A stretch of DNA of 64,000 nt from Olegusella massiliensis. GTDB lineage: Bacteria > Actinomycetota > Coriobacteriia > Coriobacteriales > Atopobiaceae. The translations under genes were made by a program, and so were the position numbers. The stretch covers positions 496,001-560,000 of the forward strand of contig NZ_FLLS01000002.1 of the NCBI RefSeq assembly GCF_900078545.1, read 5' to 3'. Positions within the stretch are counted from its first letter, which is position 1, and every line of letters starts with the position of its first letter. The notes under the pieces were generated by a model. The model ran no database searches. It was not told the DNA's origin and saw only the letters and a list, made by a program, of their open reading frames with translations. This document shows, piece by piece, positions 8,097-51,650 of the stretch.

Positions 8097-8105
8097 GCCA
8101 ATTAC

Positions 8106-9521
8106 CTACTTAGATTTTTTGCGTAAGGCGTCACTAACGTTGACATAGAGCAAGCCTAAGGTACTCGAAGCCAGTGCCGCGACTAAAATTGCGCACTTAG
8201 CAATATTGACCTCGTGCGGGCTAAAAGCAAGGCTGGCAATCAGGATAGACATTGTAAAGCCAATACCACCCATGAGACCAACAGCGGTTACCTGATGCCA
8301 GTCGACATGGTGCGGTAGCTTAAAGATACCTGTCTTGACCAATAAGAAAGTCACGCCAACAATTCCGATGGGCTTACCAAACACGGCACCCAAAAACACA
8401 CCCTGTGCCACAGGATCAGCAAAGACTTGTCCAAGATCAACTCCCACAATACGTACTTGTGCATTCACAAAGGCAAACAGCGGCAAAATCAAAAAGTTCA
8501 CTGGCACGGTCCAGTACTGTTCCATACGTTGCAGAGGTGGACGCACATGATGCATAACACGTTCGACATGCCACGCTGCATGCGTGAAATCATGCTGACC
8601 CAAAATATGTTCTTGACTATCGTAGTCACGATCAAGCTCAATGGCCTGCGCATCCAACCATCCTCGCAGCGCAGAAAGCTGAACATCAGAATGCGAAGGC
8701 AAGAAAAATGCCAAGATAACGCCTGCCAACGTAGCGTGAATACCTGAGTTAAACATGCAAAGCCATAATATGAGACCCACAAACACATAGGGCTTAAGCG
8801 AGTACACCTTTGCGTGATTGAGCAAAGCAAGCGTAAAAACTGCTCCTAAAGCTGCCGCTGTCCACATCACATCAATGGTTTGCCCATAAAAGAGTGCCAA
8901 CACCACAATGGCCAAAATGTCATCTGCAATAGCAAGTGTCTGAAAAAAGACCTTCGCTTCAAAAGAAACCTTATCACCCAGCAGGCTCATGACCCCCAGC
9001 GCAAAAGCAATATCTGTTGCAATAGGAGTGGCCCAACCCTGGTGTGCACCATGCAGATTAAAGATGAGATACATAATCGCAGGTACGACAACGCCTCCAA
9101 CAGCAGCAAGCATGGGAAGCGCAGCTTGGCGAGGGTAACGCAGCTGTCCTACAGTCATTTCATACTTGAGCTCAACGCCTACCAGCATAAAGAAAATGGC
9201 CATCAAAAAGTCATTGACAAATTGCTCGGCACTGATTTCAACGGCAGCCCGTCCCACACCTACCATTAGCGGCGCTTCAATTGCATGGCGTACTGCTTCA
9301 TAAAGAGGAGAATTGGCAACCATAACGGCCAGCACTGCAGCAAAGACCATCACTGCAGCAGCTATCGTTGAGCTTGAGCTCAGCTCAGATAGGGCACTGC
9401 GCTGGCCGATGCGACGTATGACCGCATCTTCGTCGTAAATGCGCGCAGCATAGTGACGTGCCTCTTGGGCCTTGGTAAGGCTAATGAGAGACGTATATTT
9501 GCTCCTTCTTTTTTCACTCAT
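8106..9521 (-). CDS. nhaA: Na+/H+ antiporter NhaA
   Basis: 471 residues with about 12 membrane segments. NhaA expels Na+ in exchange for protons at high pH or salinity. The functional aspartates are visible: ATDIAFALGVMSLLG (equivalent to E. coli Asp133) and LAIADDILAIVVLALFYGQ (the Asp163/Asp164 pair). FFMLVGVELKYEM matches the family signature. The N-terminal cytoplasmic extension (about 60 residues) and a central hydrophilic loop near DSQEHILGQHDF make it longer than the E. coli protein. It is monocistronic and divergent from the lipoprotein gene. Confidence 0.95.
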   Translation of the reverse strand: MSEKRRSKYTSLISLTKAQEARHYAARIYDEDAVIRRIGQRSALSELSSSSTIAAAVMVFAAVLAVMVANSPLYEAVRHAIEAPLMVGVGRAAVEISAEQFVNDFLMAIFFMLVGVELKYEMTVGQLRYPRQAALPMLAAVGGVVVPAIMYLIFNLHGAHQGWATPIATDIAFALGVMSLLGDKVSFEAKVFFQTLAIADDILAIVVLALFYGQTIDVMWTAAALGAVFTLALLNHAKVYSLKPYVFVGLILWLCMFNSGIHATLAGVILAFFLPSHSDVQLSALRGWLDAQAIELDRDYDSQEHILGQHDFTHAAWHVERVMHHVRPPLQRMEQYWTVPVNFLILPLFAFVNAQVRIVGVDLGQVFADPVAQGVFLGAVFGKPIGIVGVTFLLVKTGIFKLPHHVDWHQVTAVGLMGGIGFTMSILIASLAFSPHEVNIAKCAILVAALASSTLGLLYVNVSDALRKKSK

Positions 9522-13728: not shown

Positions 13729-13792
13729 TGCTCATAAATATGGCTTCGTTCACACGCACAAAAGCTGTACAAAACGGGTATAGTCAATTTGT

Positions 13793-13920
13793 CAGTTTCA
13801 GGGCGGGGTGAGATTCCCCACTGGCGGTGACGGGACCTATGTCCCCCAGTCCGCAAGCTGCATTGCAGCAGACCTGGTGTAAATCCGGGACCAACGGTAC
13901 AGTCCGGATGGAAGAAACGG
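13793..13920 (+). promoter_or_regulatory. FMN riboswitch (RFN element)
   Basis: The conserved RFN blocks are present in order: AGGGCGGGGTGAGATTCCCC, ACTGGCGGTGA, CCCCCAGTCCGC, GACCTGGTGTAAATCCGGGA, CCAACGGTACAGTCCGGATG. The closing stem P1 can form between CAGTTTC (13793-13799) and GAAACGG (13914-13920), with one mismatch. The 3' strand of P1 runs into the Shine-Dalgarno sequence ACGGAG of the next gene (13917-13922). I infer translational control: FMN binding stabilises P1 and hides the ribosome site. It heads the riboflavin transporter operon. Confidence 0.95.
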
Positions 13921-13927
13921 AGCCATT

Positions 13928-39557: not shown

Positions 39558-40547
39558 ATGGTTGAAGAAAAGAAGAGCTGCGATACGACTGCAACAAAGC
39601 AGCATGGTGCTGGGCAACAGTCTTCCGCCGAGAGAAAACACTCAGATGCGCCATCGCTTTTCCATGGCATTATGCGCTCGTTGGGATTTATGGCCGTACT
39701 CTATGCGGTTCTGCTGGTACTCTCTGCCGTGGTGACACCACACAACCCTGTGGTCACCTTAGGTTTGCACTTCCCTAATCAATTTGACTATACACTGCTT
39801 GACCGCAACAGTCTTGACCTTATCTTTGTTGGTGACTCAAGTGCACAAAGCAGTTTTGCCCCTGAGCTTATTGAACAACGTATAGGCATCCGCTCATACA
39901 ATTCTGCTCGTCCGCTACAAAAGCTCGCCGAGTCTGATGAGATTGCCAACGATACCTTTAACTATCACCATACCAAGCTTGTTGTTGCCGAAACCAACAA
40001 CTTCTTCCACCGTACGGGCGTTCGCATGGTTATGCAAGATGTTGGTCGCAGAATTTGTCCTTTGCTGCGCTATCACAGCAACTGGAAGCTCATTGCCACA
40101 GGGCACATGGATGACAATCCCCAAGGCATTGCTCCGCATATGGGTTATAAAAAGAAAGAACAAGTAGTCCCTTACAAGGGCGGCGATTATATGAAGGACA
40201 AGGGCAACAAGATTTCCTTGACTCCCATTGCCGAGTACTACCTCAATGACCTAAAGAAAAGCTGTGAAGAGCATGGTGCAAAATTAGTACTAGTAAGCGC
40301 TCCAAATGCTCGCGAGTTTACTTTTGCAAGACATGTTGAGCTTGAACGCTGGGCAAAAAAGAACGGTGTCACCTACTACGACATGAACGATCCCTCTTCT
40401 AAGGTTGGCATCGACTGGTCGGTCGATTCGCGCGACGGTGGCACACATCTTAATTTTGCGGGTGCTACCAAGGCCAGCAACTGGCTCGCCGATCGTCTTT
40501 ACACCGACTTTGGCATTGGCCATAAGCCCACGGGAGATCAAAAGTAG
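39558..40547 (+). CDS. SGNH-fold DltD-like protein
   Basis: 329 residues. One membrane segment (about 40-60) and an extracellular SGNH domain. The nucleophile block is FVGDSSAQSSF and the Asp/His block is DGGTHLNFAGA. It takes the DltD position and probably completes D-alanine transfer to the polymer. It is shorter than classical DltD and its motifs are closer to general SGNH/AlgX-like proteins. Starts 8 bases after dltB with TAGGATG upstream. Confidence 0.75.
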   Translation: MVEEKKSCDTTATKQHGAGQQSSAERKHSDAPSLFHGIMRSLGFMAVLYAVLLVLSAVVTPHNPVVTLGLHFPNQFDYTLLDRNSLDLIFVGDSSAQSSFAPELIEQRIGIRSYNSARPLQKLAESDEIANDTFNYHHTKLVVAETNNFFHRTGVRMVMQDVGRRICPLLRYHSNWKLIATGHMDDNPQGIAPHMGYKKKEQVVPYKGGDYMKDKGNKISLTPIAEYYLNDLKKSCEEHGAKLVLVSAPNAREFTFARHVELERWAKKNGVTYYDMNDPSSKVGIDWSVDSRDGGTHLNFAGATKASNWLADRLYTDFGIGHKPTGDQK

Positions 40548-40603: not shown

Positions 40604-40742
40604 AGATGGTTCAAGCTTCGAGCCTTTTTTCAATAGATGGTTCGTTTGTCGAACTAGAGAAAAATCTGACCTGCGCTTTTACACTTGCTTACTTCGAAAC
40701 TCGAACCATCTTTTGTTTGAGGCGCCGAAACTTGAACCATCT
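40604..40742. repeat. Dispersed structured repeat, copy A
   Basis: A nested inverted repeat between convergent dltD-like and yaaA genes. Outer arms: 40604-40624 and 40721-40742 (AGATGGTTCAAG ... CTTGAACCATCT). Inner arms: AGATGGTTCG (40635-40644) and CGAACCATCT (40702-40711). The 77-bp inner unit is nearly identical to 51574-51650, including the loop block GAGAAAAATCTGACCTGCG. The rest of 40548-40853 has no supported gene. It could be a REP/MITE-like element or a two-way terminator. Confidence 0.8.
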
Positions 40743-40853
40743 ACGGCTCAGAGTGTATTTGCGGCAGTTGTGATAAACGCGCGCCTAGGCCAGCTGACAC
40801 CAAAGCACACCTACAGCAGCGGCAGCCGCATACGCAATGTGGGCGAAGCGGGC

Positions 40854-41612
40854 TTAGTTGGCTTTTCTTATAAAGAAAAACTCGGTATCAGTAGAAAGCT
40901 CCTCAGCAAAGCACCAATCCGGCGAGTCAAATTGCTTGAGTTCCTCAGGCGCTTTAACCTGATGCACGGCAGCATAACGCAGCATTTCGCCACGAGCCAT
41001 CTTGCAATAAACGCCTTTTTGCACCAGGCCACGCGCAGTTTCAACGACGAAATTGCAACTAACCATCCGGTCTTGTGGCATGAGATAGCGCTCCACTATG
41101 CGTGAATACTCTGTGGAAGCAAGGTTAACAACCACATGGTCAGTACCTACGCCACGCATTGCTTCTTGATAGACTGCATCGCCCCAATACTCATAAAGGC
41201 TGCGTGTGCCAGCCACCTGCGCTTTTTCCTGCATTTCTAGGCGATAGGGTACCACTGCATCAAAAGGTCGCAGTGCGCCATAAAGTCCCGACAGTATAAG
41301 CAGATGATCTTGCAAATAGGCCAGCTGCTCTTCTTCCATAACACCAGCCGCGAGGTAGTTAAAAGCAATGCCATCATATGACAAAATTGCCGATACAAGC
41401 CCGCGCTCTAGATTTGCTTGCGCAAGCGCATCATAAGCTGCCTGTGCAATAGAGTCGCTCGTCTTCCATAGGCGCTTTGCTTCCTCATAAGAAAGCGACT
41501 GCAACCATTCAAGCACTGTTTGCGCTTGTGCAAGAAAAAGCGGCTTGGTAAGCGGAGCAAGGTCATCAGCCTCACTCCGCATACGTTTTGCTGGGGAAAA
41601 AATGATTCTCAT
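40854..41612 (-). CDS. yaaA: Peroxide stress protein YaaA
   Basis: 252 residues. YaaA/DUF328 limits free iron and protects DNA under H2O2 stress. The N-terminus IIFSPAKRM, YDGIAFNYL (YxGxA-like) and LYGALRPFD match the family, as does YRLEMQ. ATG 41612 is used (a GTG directly precedes it). It lies 15 bases upstream of the bcp stop side: the bcp gene ends at 41628 on the same strand, so bcp-yaaA form an oxidative-stress operon. Confidence 0.9.
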   Translation of the reverse strand: MRIIFSPAKRMRSEADDLAPLTKPLFLAQAQTVLEWLQSLSYEEAKRLWKTSDSIAQAAYDALAQANLERGLVSAILSYDGIAFNYLAAGVMEEEQLAYLQDHLLILSGLYGALRPFDAVVPYRLEMQEKAQVAGTRSLYEYWGDAVYQEAMRGVGTDHVVVNLASTEYSRIVERYLMPQDRMVSCNFVVETARGLVQKGVYCKMARGEMLRYAAVHQVKAPEELKQFDSPDWCFAEELSTDTEFFFIRKAN

Positions 41613-41627
41613 CACAGGGACAATCTT

Positions 41628-42086
41628 TTAGGCGTCAAGCAGATCGAGCGTATCCTGGGGGTTTTCTGCAGCCTTCACTTTGGTCTGCACGCGCGCAATG
41701 CGGCCCTTCTCATCAATAAGGTACGTACTCCGCACAATGCCCATATAGGTTCTGCCATAGTTTTTCTTTTCCTGCCACACGCCATAAGCCTCGATGACTT
41801 TATGTTCAGGGTCAGATAGCAGGGTAAAGGGCAGGTTAAACTTCTCCTGGAATTTCTTGTGTGATGCCACGGAGTCTTTGGAGACTCCTAGGACAACAGC
41901 ACCTTTCTCAAGGAACTGAGGATAACGCTCAGCAAAACCACAGGCTTGCTTGGTGCAGCCAGGTGTATTGTCTTTGGGATAAAAATACAAGACAACTTTT
42001 TTGCCCTGATAATCACTGAGTTTATGCGTCACACCATCTTGATCGGGCAGCTCGAAGTCCGGTGCAATGGCTCCAATTTCTAACAT
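41628..42086 (-). CDS. bcp: Thiol peroxidase, Bcp/PrxQ type
   Basis: 152 residues. Reduces H2O2 and organic hydroperoxides using thioredoxin. Peroxidatic C44 in [10 protein letters not shown] and resolving C49 five residues later show the alpha2-helix 2-Cys type. ATG 42086 has AAAAGGAGAAGG upstream. It is cotranscribed with yaaA, which starts 15 bases after its stop. Confidence 0.93.
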
Positions 42087-42203
42087 ATTCCTTCTCCTTT
42101 TAAAAGCAGGGCGCAACGCCCTTGCGTCACGTCCTGCTTGAATCTATCTGGTCCTACTCATTGCAAAATGACACGACTGGACCACGATGCGCCTGCGAAG
42201 CGT

Positions 42204-43142
42204 CTACTTATAAGAGTAAAAACCCTCGCCAGCATTGATGCCTGTCTTGCCTTCGGCAATCATGGCCTCAATCTTTTTGATAAGGATATTATGAATATCG
42301 TTGGGGTCATCAGTGGTAACCTGCATCTTAACGATGTTAAGCACCGTGGTCAAACCAACAACATCAATGATGCGGAACGGGCCATGAGCAGCACCTGTAG
42401 CAATCTCCCAGACTCGGTCGATATCCTGAGGACTCGCGACATCCTTTGCCCAGAGCATCTGCGCTGCACTCAAGAGGGGAACGAGCATGGAGTTGAGCAC
42501 ATAACCCGGCTGCTCCTTGTGCAGCTGGATGGGAACCATAGCGATGTCTTGGGAGTACTGTACCAGCTGCTGGTAGACATCATCGCTGGTGCCAGGATGC
42601 GGCATAATCTCAGCAGTATTGCCAATCCAAATATTATTGGCAAAGTGGTATCCCAAAAACTTTTCGGGACGCCCCGTCTTTTCGGCAAAAGTGCTGGGCA
42701 ACAGAGTTGAGGAGTTGGTAACGACGATGGTCTTTTCGGGAAGGTGCTTCTGAAGCTCTTCGTAGAAGGCTATCTTCTGCTGAGGATCCTCAGCCACAGC
42801 CTCGATAACGAGGTCTGCATCACTAAAAGCCTCATCCCAGTCGGTGGTTAAGTGAAGATTGGTACGAGCAGCAACAGCAGCAGCCTTAAGCTCATCGATA
42901 TGCTCATCCGTTGCCTCTTCGAGCTTGCCAAAACCAGGAGCCCACTTGCTCTTGTCGGTCTTTGCAGCTTCTAGACTCGCAACATAAATTCCCTGCAGAC
43001 GATCAAGTTTGGGTTCGCAACGGGCAATAGAGGCCTCACTACGCAGCCAAATGGTAACGTTAAAACCTCTGAATGCACTTTGGTAAGCAATCTGGCTACC
43101 TAAAACACCGCCACCTGCAATGGTGACCTTTTTAATACCCAT
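42204..43142 (-). CDS. 3-hydroxyacyl-CoA dehydrogenase
   Basis: 312 residues. NAD-binding N-terminus (TIAGGGVLGSQIAYQSAFRG) and a C-terminal 3HCDH domain. It interconverts 3-hydroxyacyl-CoA and 3-oxoacyl-CoA. The catalytic His and Glu fall in KFLGYHFANNIWIG and HKEQPGYVLN. AAAGGAGCCAATAC precedes the ATG. No other fatty-acid or butyrate gene is adjacent, so its pathway is not clear from context. The pseudogene upstream is on the same strand. Confidence 0.88.
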   Translation of the reverse strand: MGIKKVTIAGGGVLGSQIAYQSAFRGFNVTIWLRSEASIARCEPKLDRLQGIYVASLEAAKTDKSKWAPGFGKLEEATDEHIDELKAAAVAARTNLHLTTDWDEAFSDADLVIEAVAEDPQQKIAFYEELQKHLPEKTIVVTNSSTLLPSTFAEKTGRPEKFLGYHFANNIWIGNTAEIMPHPGTSDDVYQQLVQYSQDIAMVPIQLHKEQPGYVLNSMLVPLLSAAQMLWAKDVASPQDIDRVWEIATGAAHGPFRIIDVVGLTTVLNIVKMQVTTDDPNDIHNILIKKIEAMIAEGKTGINAGEGFYSYK

Positions 43143-43203
43143 GTATTGGCTCCTTTCAAAGAGCTGTAAAAGTATAGCGAAGCAAGTCACGAGGATTTTA
43201 TGA

Positions 43204-43790
43204 GCCTCAAGCTTCGCCAGCCATATGTCAAGTTATACCCCTTGCTGCGTGTAAATAGACCCCCGTCAAGTGACTGGCAGGATTGCTTGGGTAAATGGGG
43301 CGTATTTTTTTGCTCAGCGTCGTGGCGGACAATGATTTCATAGACTTCAGCATTCCCACGAAGGATTTTATTTTTTGTTTTGCTCTCACGGTCGCCAAGA
43401 GAAAGATAGACTGCCTTGGGCATAGCGGCTTGAGTGCGCATAGCAAATGGATGAGTAAGCGCATATTCCTTGAAATCAGGAAATTACAGCGAGCCAGAAA
43501 CGCAAGCTGCTCCCTTGAAAATATCTGTCTGATAAAGTGACCAAAGAGCAAAAAGTCCTGCCAGAGAATAACCTGAAATATATGCTTCGCCGTAGTATTC
43601 GCCCAATTCATGCTGAGCAAGGGGCACCACTACGCTAAGCAACCAATCTAGGTATGCGGGCGCGTCACCCGTAAAATGATCTTGATTTCCAAGAACGCGA
43701 TTTGCTTCCCAAGGGGAAAGATCCTCATTCCAATTGATACCTGAAATTGTGACTAAGTGGAAAGATGGACAGGATGGAAGTTACTAGCTA
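43204..43790 (-). pseudogene. Decayed alpha/beta-hydrolase (esterase) gene
   Basis: Minus-strand translation gives a recognisable esterase cut by faults. Reading LVTISGINWNEDLSPWEA, then SGYSLAGLFALWSLYQTD (nucleophile elbow GYSLAG), it hits TAA after CVSGSL, where relatives have Trp. It continues FPDFKEYALTHPF and KAVYLSLGDRESKTKN, then loses frame; NPASHLTGVYLHAARGIT appears in another frame and ends in TGA where Trp is expected. The N-terminal part is missing. So it has two stops, at least one frameshift and a 5' loss. Confidence 0.8.
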
Positions 43791-43920
43791 ATTATGAAGA
43801 CAATGGTCTCACATTCCGCATCCGCATGCGCTAATGCTACCCGTGAGGATCACGGCATACATTCCACTGACATGTTGAGCGGAATTCCAATGGAATTGCC
43901 TCAAAAAGCCAGCAACTTTG

Positions 43921-44150
43921 ACCCCTATTCGCTCTAACGCACGATATGCGCCATTAAGCAATATCTGAGCAAGTATGTTTGTGCTGGTAGATGCACTAAT
44001 TTTTGAGGCAGGTGTTTTCCCGGGTTTTGTCCTGACTTTTTGTATTCGTAAAAGCGCTGGTAGTTGGGATGACACCAAAATAAACGCATTAATAATCAAA
44101 CAAAAAGACTCATGAATTGGCGCATATCGTACGTTAGAGCGAATAGGGGT
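43921..44150. repeat. 34-bp inverted repeats flanking about 160 bp
   Basis: Left arm 43921-43955 (ACCCCTATTCGCTCTAACGC...) and right arm 44115-44150 are reverse complements with one mismatch and one indel. No clear target duplication flanks them. The inside shows no convincing gene. It may be a MITE-like element or an inverted duplication; on both arms a GAYR-x-LERIG peptide is encoded in opposite directions, suggesting a duplicated gene fragment. The whole of 43143-44420 looks decayed. Confidence 0.7.
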
Positions 44151-44420
44151 ATGCAAAAAACGCTTATCTAAAAAACTTAGTATCTGAAGTGCATCGATAT
44201 TTTGCAGTAAAACCAAGGAATAGGCTCCCTTCGCTAGAACCATACAAACACAACGAGCAATCTACCTTTGATTTAGCGATTTGTAATCTGAATAGATAAA
44301 TAGACACAACAAATTTCCCCTAAGGGGCAACTCAGCTCTCAACTTGTGCAAGTTAGCATAACCAGAAGTGCATTCCCTCCTCTCTCCCCTATGCTTTCAT
44401 TACACGGAGATGTAGGAGAA

Positions 44421-44873
44421 ATGATGGTTATACAGCATATACAGCAAGAGGGCCAACGCGACATCAAAGTAGTCGTAACAAGTGCACCAGCTGACCCGCA
44501 CGCAATAAGGATTATTGATCAGCTTAAAACACTCGATGGAAAACTCATCGCATATGAACCTGGCACTGTAACGCACCGCATACTGCCCTATAACGATGTG
44601 CTGTTCATTGAAATTCATGCCCATCGGTGCTGGGTCTATTGCACCAACGGCATGAAGCTCGAAAGTCCCCAACGCCTCTACGAACTAGAAGAGTCGCTCG
44701 CACACACAGAATTCATCCGTATCTCAAAGCAGGTTATTGTCAATTTCGATAAGGTCTTACGCATCCGACCTGAATTCAACCACCGTCTTATGCTCGAATT
44801 GGAAGACGGTACGCAGATACTCGTCACGCGCAACTATGTATCCGAAATTAAGCGGCGTCTCAGCATGCTATAG
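44421..44873 (+). CDS. LytTR-domain transcriptional regulator
   Basis: 150 residues. A short N-terminal part is followed by a LytTR DNA-binding domain (about 50-150), with YELEESLAHTEFIRISKQVIVNFDKV typical of the family. There is no receiver domain. ATG 44421 follows TGTAGGAGAA. The DUF3021 membrane protein follows after 34 bases; such pairs work as regulator plus membrane inhibitor in streptococci. A perfect 14-bp palindrome AACTTGTGCAAGTT lies at 44341-44354. Confidence 0.88.
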   Translation: MMVIQHIQQEGQRDIKVVVTSAPADPHAIRIIDQLKTLDGKLIAYEPGTVTHRILPYNDVLFIEIHAHRCWVYCTNGMKLESPQRLYELEESLAHTEFIRISKQVIVNFDKVLRIRPEFNHRLMLELEDGTQILVTRNYVSEIKRRLSML

Positions 44874-44907
44874 GTTTATCGCCCGTACATTTTAAGAAAG
44901 GACAACC

Positions 44908-45399
44908 ATGAAGACAGAAAAAGACACGCCTTCTACCAGTATATTTGGCGAAGCATATGAGCATAAACCCGTAACCATATTTGTGCGCGGTATATTTAGT
45001 GGCAGCTTGTTTGCAGTTGTATGGTTACTTCTTGCTTGCGCCATTTGCGCAGTAGCAGGTATGTGGAATCAAGGAATAGCCATCTGTTTTTCCCTTATCA
45101 TAGCAAGCCTTTTGGGAGGATTATTACAGCAGTTTTGGTTTAGCTATGCGCTATTCGTCAAACCAAGCTACCCAATGAGAATTGCTGGCTTTGGTCTAAG
45201 TTACTTTGTCGTTCTTGCGTTTTGCGCTTCAATTGGTGCTTGGTTTCCTACAAAAAATCTTGGTGCATGGATTAGTTTTATCGTTGCCTATTTGCTCATA
45301 CTTGCCATCATTACCGCTGGCTTTACCATTACATTCCGTCGACAAGGTGCCAGTTACAGCGAACGCCTCGCTGCCTACCGCAAACAACAGGGCAAGTAA
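44908..45399 (+). CDS. DUF3021 membrane protein
   Basis: 163 residues with four membrane segments. DUF3021 proteins accompany LytTR regulators and hold them inactive in related systems (HdrM/BrsM-like). AAGAAAGGACAACC precedes the ATG. A terminator follows, so the pair forms its own two-gene unit. What signal it senses cannot be read from sequence. Confidence 0.82.
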   Translation: MKTEKDTPSTSIFGEAYEHKPVTIFVRGIFSGSLFAVVWLLLACAICAVAGMWNQGIAICFSLIIASLLGGLLQQFWFSYALFVKPSYPMRIAGFGLSYFVVLAFCASIGAWFPTKNLGAWISFIVAYLLILAIITAGFTITFRRQGASYSERLAAYRKQQGK

Positions 45400-45422
45400 T
45401 CACCAATCAAAGCTCCCATAAG

Positions 45423-45456
45423 AAAACCTAGGTGACTCTTCACCCACCTAGGTTTT
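45423..45456 (+). terminator. Terminator after the LytTR-DUF3021 pair
   Basis: AAAACCTAGGTG (45423-45434) pairs with CACCTAGGTTTT (45445-45456), a perfect 12-bp stem with a 10-base loop ending in TTTT. Confidence 0.9.
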
Positions 45457-45616
45457 CATTGCTTTTTAACTAACCCCAATTGAACTTGATGTGATGGACC
45501 AATGCTGTTCAAGGTATTCTTTCTTGGCATTTTTCTATACTAGAGACAAACCATTTGAATGCCCGCTTTGCTTTACCGCAGCCAGCATTTCAAGTGCGCA
45601 CAAAGAAAGGACCTCT

Positions 45617-46693
45617 GTGAATCTGCCTTGGAACCTTATTGTTTCTCTCATTGCCACCATCCCACTGACAATCTCAATCTTTCTTTTTGTCAGACAATGG
45701 CATCGTGAACGCAGGGCACTAAGGCTAGCCGCGGAATTAGGATTAATTATCCTCAGCTTGATCTTTTTTATTGGTGGCATCAGTACACAGCTGGGAAGTG
45801 AGTCGCCTTTTGTTCGTATCGGATTAGTAGTACTTGCCATCATGGCACTCGTACTTATTAGTTTTCCTTTTGTGCTTATTATGTCTGCCATTACAACAAG
45901 CATAACTCTTATTCGTCGCGAAGGACTCAAGCCAAGGAATTTACTTTCCTTAGGCGCGGGTTTGCTTGCCCTGTTTTATCCTCTGGCGTGGAAACTCTTT
46001 CAGCCTCAAACGAGCAACAGCACCCTTCTCACAATCCTTGGAATTACCTACACCCTATTCTCAACTGCGGTAACCTTTATTTCTATTCTCTTTTTACTCT
46101 ACGTAGTGGCAAGCTGGCTCAATCTTATTCCTCTACATCGCAAGCACTACGATTACATTGTCGTATTGGGAGCAGGACTCAGCGGAGGTCGAAAAGTAAC
46201 TCCTTTGCTGGCCAAACGTGTAGAAGCAGGTATTAAAGCGTGGCACAAAAACCCTGGTAGCATACTCATCATGTCAGGCGGGCAAGGCGCAGATGAACTT
46301 GTCCCCGAGGCACAGGCGATGTGCGAATATGCAATCGAACAAGATATTCCCAAAACAGCAATTATGGAAGAAAACCGCTCTGTCAATACACTGCAAAACA
46401 TTCAGTTTTCTTTTGGCATTATCAATGCCAAAAGCATCACCAGCCCCAACGCCAAGCCAAATGTATTAATCGTGTCAGATGACTACCATGTATTTCGCGC
46501 ACTGCTTCTCGCGCGCAACAATGGCTTTATATGTGATGGACGCGGTTCACGTACACGCCTGTACTTCTACATTAATGCAATGGTGCGCGAGTTTGTCGCA
46601 TTTCTTGTATCTCGAAAAGCCCAACTCGCAAAACCACTGGTTATTGTTTTGGGTCTTGAGCTTTTTATCTTTATCGCACGATTGGTTTCGTAG
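45617..46693 (+). CDS. DUF218 (YdcF/SanA-like) membrane protein
   Basis: 358 residues. Five to six membrane segments come first (to about residue 170), then a DUF218 domain with VVLGAGLSGGRKVTPLLAKR, ILIMSGGQGADE and ENRSVNTLQNI. DUF218 proteins affect envelope integrity and antibiotic tolerance in other bacteria; the reaction is unknown. GTG 45617 is chosen because AGAAAGGACCTCT precedes it; an open frame reaches further upstream into the terminator region. Confidence 0.85.
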   Translation: MNLPWNLIVSLIATIPLTISIFLFVRQWHRERRALRLAAELGLIILSLIFFIGGISTQLGSESPFVRIGLVVLAIMALVLISFPFVLIMSAITTSITLIRREGLKPRNLLSLGAGLLALFYPLAWKLFQPQTSNSTLLTILGITYTLFSTAVTFISILFLLYVVASWLNLIPLHRKHYDYIVVLGAGLSGGRKVTPLLAKRVEAGIKAWHKNPGSILIMSGGQGADELVPEAQAMCEYAIEQDIPKTAIMEENRSVNTLQNIQFSFGIINAKSITSPNAKPNVLIVSDDYHVFRALLLARNNGFICDGRGSRTRLYFYINAMVREFVAFLVSRKAQLAKPLVIVLGLELFIFIARLVS

Positions 46694-46749
46694 TGTGCAT
46701 ACGTGCATGATTTCCCAAGAGGCAGTGCCAATAAAATGGAGGCGTAAGG

Positions 46750-47355
46750 ATGATTGGGCTGGAGGAAAAGATGTTTCCCGTCTACTTTGCCAGCTACTCA
46801 TCCCCTTTGGGCAAAATTTCCCTCGCCGCCAACGCAGAAGGACTCTGTGGAGCATGGCTTGAAAACCAAGCACATTTCGAAGAAAAGCTCGCAATGCGCC
46901 TTGGCATTTCAACGGCAGATTTGCCCCATGAAGACCTCAAAAGAAACGCTGGCATTTTGAGCTCACCGTATATCTCACGTAGCCGCGCATGGCTGGATGC
47001 GTACTTTGCAGGAGAAATACCTACTACCTTCCCTCCTTTTTCTCTTCATGGGACAGCTTTTCAGGAAGAAGTGTGGACGCAGTTAACTCAAATTCCTTAT
47101 GGCAGACGTATCACTTACGGCGCACTTGCACAACAAATAGAAAACCAGCAAAATGACGGGAAGAGAGTTTCTCCTCGAGCCGTTGGCGCAGCAGTTGCAC
47201 GCAACCCTATTTCAATTATTATTCCGTGCCACCGCGTTATAGGTGCAAATGGGAGCCTTACGGGTTATGCAGGCGGCGTTGAGCGCAAACAAAAACTGCT
47301 TGACTTTGAACAAAAAACTATGAAAAATTTGGTACAAAAAGGTATCAAAATATGA
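46750..47355 (+). CDS. ogt: Methylated-DNA--protein-cysteine methyltransferase
   Basis: 201 residues. Repairs O6-alkylguanine by moving the alkyl group to its own cysteine, C160 in IIIPCHRVIGANG. The N-terminal domain and PYGRRITYGALA helix-turn-helix fit Ogt. ATG 46750 has GGAGG 7 bases upstream; ATG 46771, with its own GGAGG, is also possible. It overlaps the Crp/Fnr gene by 4 bases. Confidence 0.92.
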   Translation: MIGLEEKMFPVYFASYSSPLGKISLAANAEGLCGAWLENQAHFEEKLAMRLGISTADLPHEDLKRNAGILSSPYISRSRAWLDAYFAGEIPTTFPPFSLHGTAFQEEVWTQLTQIPYGRRITYGALAQQIENQQNDGKRVSPRAVGAAVARNPISIIIPCHRVIGANGSLTGYAGGVERKQKLLDFEQKTMKNLVQKGIKI

Positions 47356-48131
47356 ATAAAAGCAGGGAAAGCATGGCAGCAAACGACCACGAAAACATCT
47401 CCAGCAGTCCACAGGAAACTACTGTTAGCCCCACCGTCGGCACTAGTGTTGGCCCAAAGAATGCGGACCACATTTTTATTGGTTTTATCCCTTTGTTTGC
47501 GGGGTTATCTGATGATGCCAAGGAAAGCCTTATCTCAGGAGCAATACATAGTTTGCGTTCCAAGGGATCCATCTTGGTACATGAAGGCGACCCTATTAAT
47601 TCCATTATTATTGTTCGCTCGGGACGTATCAAAACTTTTCGTACCGACAGTAACGGTCAGGAATATGTATTGGACGTTCTCCATGATGGGCAGGCTATTT
47701 GGCACGGCGTCTTCATGGAAGAGCAGACCTATCACTACTCTGTAGGCTGCCTTACTGATGTTGATCTCTATTTCATTCGCCGCTCTCATTTTGAAGCGCA
47801 GATCAAAAACAATCCTACGGTAGCCATAGGACTGATACACATGATTGGCGCAGAACTTTTTGAAGCTGAAGAAAAGATTATGATGCTCGGCATACGTGAC
47901 CCTCAACGCAGGCTTGCGGAATATCTTTTGTATCGCGATGAGCGGTGCGTCGGCCCTGAAATTCGTCTTAAGTTACAAGATATTGCGAGCTCTGTTGGAC
48001 TACGGCCCGAAACCGTCTCTCGCACCCTTAGTGCCTTTGAGCGCAAGGGTATGTTGCGTAGGGTAGGACAAGGGAGACTTTTGTTGCTCGATCGTTCTGC
48101 TTTACACGATGTAGCAGTCGGAAGCAACTAA
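47352..48131 (+). CDS. Crp/Fnr-family transcriptional regulator
   Basis: 259 residues. A cyclic-nucleotide-binding-fold sensor (about 45-165) and a winged HTH (LKLQDIASSVGLRPETVSRTLSAFERKGML). The N-terminus has about 38 extra residues. No Fnr-type cysteine cluster is visible, so any oxygen sensing would be indirect. The R-x4-SR recognition pattern is Fnr-like. It overlaps ogt by 4 bases and lies upstream of pflA-pflB, which have an FNR-like box. Confidence 0.9.
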   Translation: MNKSRESMAANDHENISSSPQETTVSPTVGTSVGPKNADHIFIGFIPLFAGLSDDAKESLISGAIHSLRSKGSILVHEGDPINSIIIVRSGRIKTFRTDSNGQEYVLDVLHDGQAIWHGVFMEEQTYHYSVGCLTDVDLYFIRRSHFEAQIKNNPTVAIGLIHMIGAELFEAEEKIMMLGIRDPQRRLAEYLLYRDERCVGPEIRLKLQDIASSVGLRPETVSRTLSAFERKGMLRRVGQGRLLLLDRSALHDVAVGSN

Positions 48132-48147
48132 GCGGAAATAGAAGACA

Positions 48148-48214
48148 GGCACGCGTGAGGCCATACGAGTGTATGGCGCAGTTCTTGCGTGACCCTCGTG
48201 CCACACTATTTTTA
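48148..48214 (+). terminator. Possible terminator after the Crp/Fnr gene
   Basis: GGCACG and CGTGCC enclose an inner 7-bp hairpin GCCATAC-GAGT-GTATGGC (48160-48177). A TTTTT run follows at 48209-48213. The stem is interrupted, so confidence is moderate. Confidence 0.45.
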
Positions 48215-48295
48215 TCCGACAAACCTGCGCCTTGACAAAACACGTGGTGAATAAGCAAGTCCATATCCGCGGCAATGTCATAAATTTCTTGTAAC

Positions 48296-48309
48296 TTGAT
48301 TCTAATCAT
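48296..48309 (+). promoter_or_regulatory. FNR/Crp-like binding site before pflA
   Basis: TTGAT-TCTA-ATCAT matches the FNR consensus TTGAT-N4-ATCAA in 9 of 10 positions. It lies 72 bases before pflA. A TAGATT -10-like hexamer (48332-48337) is placed as expected for a class II site at -41.5. The Crp/Fnr gene next door is a likely user. Confidence 0.6.
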
Positions 48310-48381
48310 AGAATGTACTCCTCTTCCCCTCTAGATTGAACGTTACACAATGCAAGAAATTGCTGCGAGGAGATGTAACGC

Positions 48382-49134
48382 ATGCTGGGAAGAGTTCACT
48401 CAACAGAGTCGTTTGGTTCGGCTGATGGCCCTGGGGTGCGCTATCTTATTTTTCTCCAAGGCTGCTCGATGCGTTGTCGCTACTGTCACAATATTGATAC
48501 CTGGGCGCTCAACCACGGTGAGCTAAAAAGTGCTGATGATCTACTAGATCAGGCCGAACGCTACCGTAACTACTGGGGAGAAGAAGGTGGCATCACGGTA
48601 AGCGGAGGCGAAGCGCTTCTGCAAATCGATTTTTTGCTTGAACTCTTTTCCAAAGCGCATATGCGTGGTATTAACACCTGCCTTGATACATCTCTTGCGA
48701 CTTTTTCACGAAAGGAGCCTTATTTTGAAAAATTCCAAAACCTCATGCAGGTCACTGACCTCATTCTCGCAGACATCAAGCATATCGACCCTGTTGAGCA
48801 CAAGGCCCTTACGGGCAAGAGCAACGAAAACATCCTTGATGCCCTGCGCTACCTCTCCTCTATCAACAAACCCGTCTGGATACGACATGTGCTCGTTCCC
48901 GGCATCACAGATAACGACAACTACCTCAAGCAAACACGAGCTTTTATCAAGACATTAAAGAATGTCAAGCGTATTGAGGTATTGCCTTATCACTGTCTCG
49001 GCACCTTTAAGTGGGACAAACTTGGGATCCCCTATACCTTGGGAGATACCAAGCCGCCTACTGCAGAACGCGTGGCTAACGCAGAGCGCATTCTTCTGGG
49101 CACAGATGAATGCGCTATAAAGCATACATGCTAA
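48382..49134 (+). CDS. pflA: Pyruvate formate-lyase activating enzyme
   Basis: 250 residues. Radical SAM enzyme that makes the glycyl radical of PflB. The [4Fe-4S] motif C28-x3-C32-x2-C35 lies in QGCSMRCRYCHN; SGGEALLQ follows. GAGGAGATGTAACGC precedes the ATG. The order pflA-pflB is reversed from E. coli, and only 12 bases separate the genes. Confidence 0.95.
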   Translation: MLGRVHSTESFGSADGPGVRYLIFLQGCSMRCRYCHNIDTWALNHGELKSADDLLDQAERYRNYWGEEGGITVSGGEALLQIDFLLELFSKAHMRGINTCLDTSLATFSRKEPYFEKFQNLMQVTDLILADIKHIDPVEHKALTGKSNENILDALRYLSSINKPVWIRHVLVPGITDNDNYLKQTRAFIKTLKNVKRIEVLPYHCLGTFKWDKLGIPYTLGDTKPPTAERVANAERILLGTDECAIKHTC

Positions 49135-49146
49135 GGAGGCATAGAA

Positions 49147-51417
49147 ATGCAAGTTCGTGACGAATGGAACGGCTTTACGGGAGGCCACTGGACTGAAGAC
49201 ATCAATGTGCGAGACTTCATCCAGAAAAACTACACCCCTTATGAGGGTGACGAGTCATTTCTCGTAGGCCCCACTGAGGCAACCGACAAGCTCTGGAGCA
49301 AGGTACAGGAGCTTCAGGCCCAGGAACGCGCAAATGGCGGCGTCCTTGATTGCGAAACCGAAATTGTCTCTAGTCTCACTGCCTATGGTCCTGGCTATAT
49401 TGACCCTGATATGAAAGACTTGGAGCGCATTGTCGGCCTTCAGACTGACAAGCCTCTCAAGCGTGCTTTTATGCCTTACGGTGGCATCAAAATGGCCCAG
49501 CAGGCAGCCGAAACCTATGGCTATCACATAAACGATAAGTACGACAAGATTTTTAACGAGTATCACAAGACTCATAACCAAGCCGTCTTTGATGCATATA
49601 CCCCTGAGATGCGCGCCGCACGTCACTCTCATATCGTCACTGGCTTGCCTGATACCTATGGTCGCGGTCGCATTGTTGGCGACTATCGCCGTGTTGCACT
49701 CTATGGCATCGACTTCCTCATCGCCAAAAAACAAGAAGACCTTGCCAACTGCGGTGATCGCACCATGACTGACGCTGTCATTCGCCTGCGTGAGGAAATC
49801 GCCGAGCAAATTCGTGCCCTTAAGGGTATGAAAGAGATGGCCAAGATCTACGGTTATGACATCTCTGCTCCTGCTGCTAATGCACACGAAGCCTTCCAGT
49901 GGCTTTACTTTGGCTACCTTGCTGCTATCAAGACTCAAAACGGTGCAGCCATGTCTGTTGGCCGTATTTCCACCTTCCTTGATATCTATCTTGAACGTGA
50001 CCTTGCCGCAGGGACACTCAGCGAATCTGAAGCCCAGGAACTTGTGGACCACATGGTGCTCAAATTCCGTATGGTCAAGTTTGCCCGCATCCCCTCTTAC
50101 AACGAGCTCTTCTCAGGTGACCCCGTATGGGCAACCCTTGAAATGGCAGGCCTTGGTATAGATGGCCGTCACATGGTAACCAAAAACGACTACCGTTTCC
50201 TGCATACGCTTGAAAATATGGGACCTGCACCCGAGCCCAACTTGACAGTTCTCTATTCACAAAATCTTCCCCAAAGCTTCCGCAAGTACGCTGCCAAGGT
50301 TTCTATCACTACCTCATCGGTTCAGTACGAAAACGATGACCTTATGCGTCCTGTCTGGGGCGATGACTACAGTATCTGCTGCTGCGTGTCTGCCACCGAA
50401 ACTGGCAAAGAAATGCAGTTCTTTGGCGCTCGTGCAAACCTGGCAAAATGTTTGCTCTACGCCATTAACGGCGGTGTCGATGATAAGTTTAAGGACAAGC
50501 AGGGACACAATATGCAGGTTGGCCCTGAGTATGCTCCTATTACGTCTGAATACTTGGACTATGATGAGGTTATGCACAAGTTTGACCTCATGATGGATTG
50601 GCTTGCTGACATTTATGTCAACATCTTGAACCTCATCCAATATATGCACGATAAGTACTATTACGAGGCTTCCGAGATGGCACTCATCGATACCGACGTC
50701 CGTCGTACGTTTGCCACGGGCATTGCGGGCTTCTCACACGTTGTCGACTCGATTTCGGCAATCAAATATGCCAAGGTCAAGTGCCTTCGCGATGAAAATG
50801 GCATTGTCTATGACTTTGAGACTGAAGGTGATTTCCCCCGTTACGGCAACGACGATGACCGCGCAGACGATATCGCGGTATGGCTGCTTAAGATATTCAT
50901 GACCAAAATCAAAAAGCATCACACCTATCGTGATTCTGAGCCGACTACCTCTATTCTTACCATTACCTCAAACGTGGTCTATGGCAAGGCAACAGCTGGC
51001 ATGCCTGACGGTCGCAAGCCCTACACGCCCTTTGCCCCTGGTGCCAACCCTGCATACGGTGCCGAGCAGAACGGTCTGCTTGCCTCACTCAATTCTGTAG
51101 CAAAGCTCCCTTATGAGTACGCACTTGATGGCATCTCTAACACGCAAACTATTAGTCCCAGCGCACTTGGCAATGATCTTGATCAGCGTAAGGCAAACTT
51201 GGTGAGTGTGATGGATGGTTACTTTGCTGCAGGCGCGCATCATCTCAACGTGAACGTCTTTGATACCGACAAGCTCAAGGATGCAATGGAACATCCCGAG
51301 AAACCCGAGTACGCCAACTTCACCATTCGCGTCTCTGGCTATGCAGTTAAATTCATCGACCTCACACGTGAGCAGCAACTTGATGTTATTGCTCGCACCT
51401 GCCACGGTCAGATGTAG
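49147..51417 (+). CDS. pflB: Formate C-acetyltransferase (pyruvate formate-lyase)
   Basis: 756 residues, normal length. Converts pyruvate and CoA to acetyl-CoA and formate in anaerobic fermentation. The catalytic cysteines lie in [17 protein letters not shown] (C411-C413 run; two of them act), and the glycyl-radical residue is G731 in [24 protein letters not shown] precedes the ATG. It is cotranscribed with pflA. Extra cysteine in the CCC run is slightly unusual. Confidence 0.96.
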
Positions 51418-51458
51418 CACCACTCTAATGGAGCAAATCGTTAATTAGAAGTGCTATG

Positions 51459-51529
51459 GCCCGGGCTACTTGTGTCGCTTATGACGCTTGTGGCCCGGGC
51501 TATTTATGGCGCGTTTATAGCCCGGGCTA
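51459..51529. repeat. Three copies of GCCCGGGCTA after pflB
   Basis: GCCCGGGCTA occurs at 51459-51468, 51493-51502 and 51520-51529, each with a self-complementary GCCCGGGC core followed by TAC/TATT. Spacing is 34 and 27 bases. They lie between pflB and repeat copy B, in a 294-base gap between convergent genes. Confidence 0.8.
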
Positions 51530-51534
51530 CTAAA

Positions 51535-51650
51535 TTTCAACAGATGGTTCATTTCTCGATAGCTTATTTCGACAGATGGTTCGTTTCTCGAGTTAGAGAA
51601 AAATCTGACCTGCGGTTTTATGACTTGCAACTTCGAAACTCGAACCATCT
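51535..51650. repeat. Dispersed structured repeat, copy B
   Basis: Two near-identical 25-bp units (51535-51559 and 51567-51591, TTTCRACAGATGGTTCR...) precede the same 77-bp core as copy A: arms AGATGGTTCG (51574-51583) and CGAACCATCT (51641-51650) with loop GAGAAAAATCTGACCTGCG. It also lies between convergent genes (pflB and the LuxR regulator). Confidence 0.8.

Follow-up and report, generated by a model that had tools for sequence, protein, structure and literature searches.

Dispersed bacterial repeats are usually defined by their conserved ends and attributed either to RNA folding or to a known transposase. REP and BIME elements, which are associated with RAYT (Y1) transposases, are extragenic palindromes dispersed in tens of copies, with arrays of alternating orientation and a preference for gene ends. 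The repeat described here shares these properties but differs in that its genus lacks a Y1 transposase, its unit is 77 bp long, a constant core lies between variable arms, and its parts keep a helical register. MITEs, including RUP and Correia elements, are short and non-coding, with inverted ends, near-identical copies at unrelated sites and an empty site, as here. However, their ends are conserved and their middle varies, whereas the present repeat has variable ends around a middle that is conserved throughout the order. BOX elements of Streptococcus pneumoniae are also modular intergenic repeats with a variable number of sub-units; compared by description rather than by sequence, they differ from the present repeat, in which sub-units are inverted around a core in a 31-bp register. 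Core-and-arm recombination sites (the phage lambda attP type, Tn7 and Mu ends) combine a core with repeated, oriented protein sites for which helical spacing matters. A core flanked by helically phased, putative protein sites is likewise found here, through a 10.5-bp ladder and a 31-bp spacing. In contrast to those sites, this element occurs in dozens of copies, carries no cargo, has no identified recombinase, and has arms that are symmetric and lineage-specific. The element appears to resemble a core-and-arm recombination site in design; membership of that class would call for a cognate recombinase and strand exchange at the core, and is not claimed. The combination of a constant core with the ladder does not fit integron attC sites, retrons, type III antitoxin arrays, invertible promoters or single-strand origins, which were also considered. 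A literature search of partial coverage returned no published description of the element.

Two copies in the window and their repeat family

The window analyzed here is a 64,000-nucleotide stretch of the Olegusella massiliensis genome (contig NZ_FLLS01000002.1, positions 496,001 to 560,000). The original prediction placed a 77-bp unit with inverted arms at 40635-40711 and again at 51574-51650, and both positions are borne out. The two units are alike, with 65 of 77 bases matching (84%), for which "nearly identical" was slightly strong wording. Both carry the arms AGATGGTTCG/CGAACCATCT and the block GAGAAAAATCTGACCTGCG. The block occurs exactly twice in the window, against an expected 0.02, and AGATGGTTCG-type sites in the window outnumber those in every shuffle. 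The outer arm pair claimed for copy A is found at 40604-40613 and 40733-40742, and the tandem extra half claimed for copy B corresponds to one additional left half-site, at 51542. The features of the two copies, in window coordinates, are:

40604..40634, + strand: copy A outer left half-site unit, 31 bp; half-site AGATGGTTCAAGCTTCG, 31-bp register
40635..40711, + strand: copy A 77-bp core element; covariance-model score 98 bits, and sequence
40635..40653, + strand: copy A inner left arm
40667..40682, + strand: copy A constant centre (TGACCTGCGCTTTTAC)
40693..40711, + strand: copy A inner right arm
40712..40742, + strand: copy A outer right half-site unit, 31 bp, with inverted half-site
51542..51573, + strand: copy B outer left half-site unit, 32 bp
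51574..51650, + strand: copy B 77-bp core element; covariance-model score 98 bits
51574..51592, + strand: copy B inner left arm
51606..51621 (contig 547606-547621), + strand: copy B constant centre (TGACCTGCGGTTTTAT), from a 16-mer search
51632..51650, + strand: copy B inner right arm

Pfam matches confirm three flanking genes as YaaA, pyruvate formate lyase and a LuxR-type response regulator; the open reading frame at 39558-40547, called dltD-like, has no Pfam match. Both window copies lie between convergent genes, as claimed, but this placement holds for only about half of the family. Three copies of GCCCGGGCTA, two of them within near-palindromes, occupy positions 51457-51530, 3' of the pyruvate formate lyase gene and 5' of copy B, and the trio is missing from the sister species at the corresponding place. 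Within the repeat itself, positions 40608-40624 resemble a terminator: the left outer half-site of copy A folds there into a stem of 5 pairs with six T behind it. Elsewhere in the window, positions 13790-13923 are an FMN riboswitch (Rfam RF00050, 107 bits).

Searching the genome and its relatives with the 77-bp unit, as the original prediction had proposed, returned further copies, and a check of the arms for covariation found compensatory changes; a chance duplication, which would have neither, is thereby dismissed. Covariance-model scoring gives approximately 24 copies in this 1.81 Mb genome and approximately 40 in the sister species Atopobium sp. oral taxon 810 (F0209), many of them at loci common to both; because copies of one genome are related, counts over copies are not all independent. 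No member of the repeat family was found in the three other genus members searched. The covariance model (R1), whose inner helix is one base off register, served as a search tool only, and pair counts were taken from alignment A3.

The core is exactly 77 bp long in 50 of 58 aligned copies and comprises a left arm (positions 1-19), a constant centre (approximately 27-46), in which TGACCTG is the best conserved stretch, and a right arm (59-77). Additional half-sites reach outward from the core, to one side or to both. Clear half-site clusters in the genome are all joined to a core, and core-less half-sites amount to a few isolated weak matches. Neighbouring half-sites on the same strand are spaced by 31 bp in 37 of 46 cases, despite differing intervening sequence. 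The sister species also harbors a second family of like design, with other arms (GGGTTCAAKAAGCACCC ... TTGAACCGTCTG), a related centre (ACCTG), half-sites 30-31 bp apart and repeats at 93 bp. At nine loci, this second family forms arrays in which several cores follow a 31-bp grid, and one sister-species locus is a hybrid of both families.

A constant core between changing arms

Of 121 genomes of the order, 62 contain the 16-mer TGACCTGSGGTTTTRY, at approximately 150 sites or more, with zero control matches; as the search used one exact 16-mer, these figures are an undercount. We take the genomes that carry the constant centre to be those of common bacteria of the gut and mouth, in the Collinsella, Eggerthella and Atopobium groups. 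The core motif ACCTGSGGTTTT has 58 matches in ten other genomes, versus 1 for the reversed pattern. Among genomes chosen for carrying the core motif, half of the distinct core sites (50 of 100) lie within an inverted repeat with a stem score of at least 13, versus 1.3% of 3600 random anchors. The arms are genus-specific, with examples being AAGTGAGTAGACTTTTT, GAGGGTATGTACACC, TTGTGCACGATTTTT, TGGCCAAAAATGACGACCTGACGAC and TGGCACAGATTCACCG, and in another genus, GAGGGTATGTACACC half-sites stand in tandem at 22 bp, as read by eye. Weak model matches in distant genomes of the order have the centre alone in common, and their arms are new. One weak distant match was rejected as a core element, being a GGGGACGGTTC-type repeat.

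Within a single genome, the two arms of any one copy agree with each other, including where the copies diverge. No weight is given to a shuffle test run on one genome's arms, because register confounds it. This copy-specific identity calls for an added process, such as conversion between arms, and hairpin-templated repair or inter-arm conversion is a fair candidate for its source.

Outside the order, the 16-mer is rarer, with approximately 22 matches in approximately 180 genomes and 0 in the control; there it sometimes adjoins a tRNA gene and mostly lacks arms. The armless core stands directly beside tRNA genes at seven loci, in the order and elsewhere in the phylum. Some viral contigs (six) contain the core with iterated or inverted flanking repeats of their own, and a stem score of at least 11 is reached at 19 of 249 distinct sites on viral contigs. 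BLAST searches returned no plasmid or phage homologues of the element.

Helical register and the form in which the element works

The geometry of each hairpin was expressed as D, the left arm-to-core distance minus the core-to-right arm distance, which is independent of the chosen arm ends. Over 40 hairpins, D takes values of -17, -8 to -6, 3 to 5, 12 to 14, 24, and 35-36. As offsets of the core from the palindrome centre, the steps of the ladder are -17, -7, 3.5, 13.5, 24 and 35. For a period of 10.5 bp, these values give a vector length R of 0.90. The 19 values outside the modal cluster give R = 0.91, a value that none of 5000 random sets attained for periods between 5 and 20, and a hand-made list with one value per genome and cluster (26 values) also gives R = 0.91. 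Random anchors or stems at the same loci give R = 0.18. Four further hairpins, with offsets beyond 40 bp, lower R to 0.82 when added; they fit the ladder less well and count against the explanation that we favor. D is approximately 3 in both Atopobium families, as derived by hand from the consensus, and the modal D sets the dyad on the G of ACC-TGC-GGT, a sequence that is itself near-symmetric. Because D changes by whole turns of B-DNA, each arm keeps its helix face relative to the core.

The original prediction offered a small structured RNA and a two-way terminator as readings of the repeat. In such an RNA, single-strand hairpin or terminator, the arms would pair in the transcript or in single-stranded DNA, and the loop would be recognized or would end transcription. 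Predicted folding is indeed strong (z -3.5 to -8.4), the copies are positioned at 3' gene ends, and arm pairing in the Atopobium family exceeds that of shuffles, although two copies of one protein site would also give such pairing. The arm mismatches tell against this alternative: across the order, they comprise 12 G-T, 11 A-C and 21 other pairs, and this near balance of G-T and A-C is expected of double-stranded DNA and not of RNA, for which a G-U bias is missing. The 10.5-bp ladder is likewise at odds with a small RNA. Orientation relative to co-directional genes is roughly equal (about 15:10 by hand count), with no clear strand preference, and the element has no Rfam match. Against a two-way terminator, which would have a short GC-rich stem, a small loop and T-tracts on either side, the 77-bp element has a large loop of approximately 40 nt and no T-tract after its stem, and copies are found beyond convergent gaps too; terminator scans of the two window gaps returned few matches, all weak and close to the level of shuffles. 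In favor of a terminator, the core outside the order can make up one side of a terminator-like hairpin that follows a tRNA gene. That intrinsic terminator, with CTGACCTGGGGTTTT as one half, contains the same 16-mer; there the 16-mer is a stem half followed by T, whereas here it is unpaired amid a larger palindrome. These readings are improbable on balance. The ladder, the tandem spacing, the mismatch balance and the lack of a clear strand preference together indicate, with high confidence, that the element works as double-stranded DNA bearing a helically phased protein complex.

Retention, turnover and probable mobility

Approximately 17 of the 24 copies here have an element at the same locus in the sister species, with orientation alike at approximately 12 loci and reversed at 5, copy A being among the reversed. 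In the eight countable orthologous pairs of like orientation, the arms and centre are 86-97% identical and the spacers 42-54%. A paired change has occurred species-wide, with positions 10/68 being mostly G/C here and A/T in the sister species. Once small spurious ORFs are excluded, approximately 30 of 59 copies lie in convergent gene gaps, approximately 25 in co-directional gaps and 2-4 in divergent gaps, versus approximately a quarter convergent and a quarter divergent among background gaps of at least 100 bp in the same regions.

The elements might instead be host-owned sites that organize or insulate the chromosome, such as gene-end roadblocks or nucleoid sites, bound by conserved host proteins, spreading slowly and kept at gene ends by their function. 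Loci common to two species at approximately 90% nucleotide identity, constraint on arms and centre, enrichment in convergent gaps with avoidance of divergent ones, and a core conserved throughout the order would all fit such sites. However, the family is absent from three other genus members, copy number varies widely, some copies are recent and near-identical, and arms differ even among copies of one genome. We regard a host-owned site as unlikely, although elements that are retained at shared loci and avoid divergent gaps would be compatible with a host function.

Neutral palindromes would require a short conserved core of other function to lie in quasi-palindromes that replication slippage or template switching has perfected and sometimes inverted. 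Such a process would produce the copy-specific arm identity, the neutral mix of mismatches and the five shared loci with reversed orientation, but it leaves the 10.5-bp ladder, the constant 31-bp half-site spacing and the constraint on the arms unexplained, and its probability is low. Hairpin-templated repair or inter-arm conversion could also lie behind the reversed orientations.

Recent turnover is evident in both genomes. The sister genome holds a near-identical 77-bp core in five places of unrelated context, some with a further 31 bp on each side (139 bp in all), and this genome holds a 138-bp pair that is 96% identical. At one old copy here, the sister species retains two arms only, joined through an internal deletion. 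One empty site was found:

8105..8109, no strand assigned: empty site; an element-carrying insert of approximately 310 bp in the sister species, none here

The sequence at this site is CCTACTT here and CCTACAT/CCTACTT at the ends of the sister insert, an imperfect 7-bp repeat, CCTAC(A/T)T. Two more searches for empty sites yielded no clear case. Species-specific amplification, recent near-identical copies and the empty site suggest a non-autonomous mobile element.

The proposal of a mobile REP/MITE-like element is partly supported, in that the repeat is multi-copy, dispersed and probably mobile; a strict REP does not fit a genus without Y1 transposase, nor a classical MITE an element with variable ends and a conserved centre. 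A classical MITE would be an internally deleted insertion sequence, and REP units would be moved by a RAYT transposase. The intergenic, palindromic character, the tens of copies, the arrays in the second family and one possible target duplication are in keeping with either. Nevertheless, Y1 transposase (PF01797) was found in 0 of 5 genus genomes, with control genomes positive, no parent insertion sequence was seen in the regions read around copies, and across genera the ends vary while the centre is constant, making a classical MITE or REP very improbable.

Copy number, the constant core, the variable complementary arms, the ladder, conservation at orthologous loci and species-specific turnover can be read directly from the sequence. 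Our full account goes further, and we give it even chances: the repeats would be order-spanning, dispersed intergenic DNA elements that act as assembly sites in double-stranded form, and putative non-autonomous mobile sites served in trans. A near-symmetric conserved core (ACC-TGC-GGT in TGACCTGSGGTTTTRY) would lie at or near the symmetry centre of two inverted arms. The arms would be binding sites, some in tandem at two or three helical turns, in register with the core. A lineage-specific protein may occupy the arms and another factor, or domain, the core, and the two may work together in trans as a complex resembling a recombinase or transposase. The elements would have been amplified here and in the sister species, surviving best at gene ends. 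Such a mobile or duplicating element served in trans is favored by the near-identical copies, by families specific to one species, by the empty site and by an amplification confined to two species. Counting against it are the many copies kept at orthologous loci, needless for a purely selfish element, the reliance on a single empty site with an imperfect 7-bp repeat, and the added process that the copy-specific identity of the arms calls for. No candidate enzyme emerged from the Y1 transposase search or from the genes between neighbouring copies, which look ordinary by eye.

Rather tentatively, and at somewhat less than an even chance, we propose that the repeats represent a new class of element, order-wide and possibly extending through the phylum and its phages, in which a dyad core is combined with fast-changing, self-complementary, phased arms. 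Such an element may be served by a recombination or chromosome-architecture machine whose arm specificity shifts between and even within genomes. Hairpins of this design are easily mistaken for terminators or small RNAs, and their annotation would change. A geometry that follows the DNA double helix, together with a constant centre, would allow a concrete search for a shared protein complex in poorly known bacteria.
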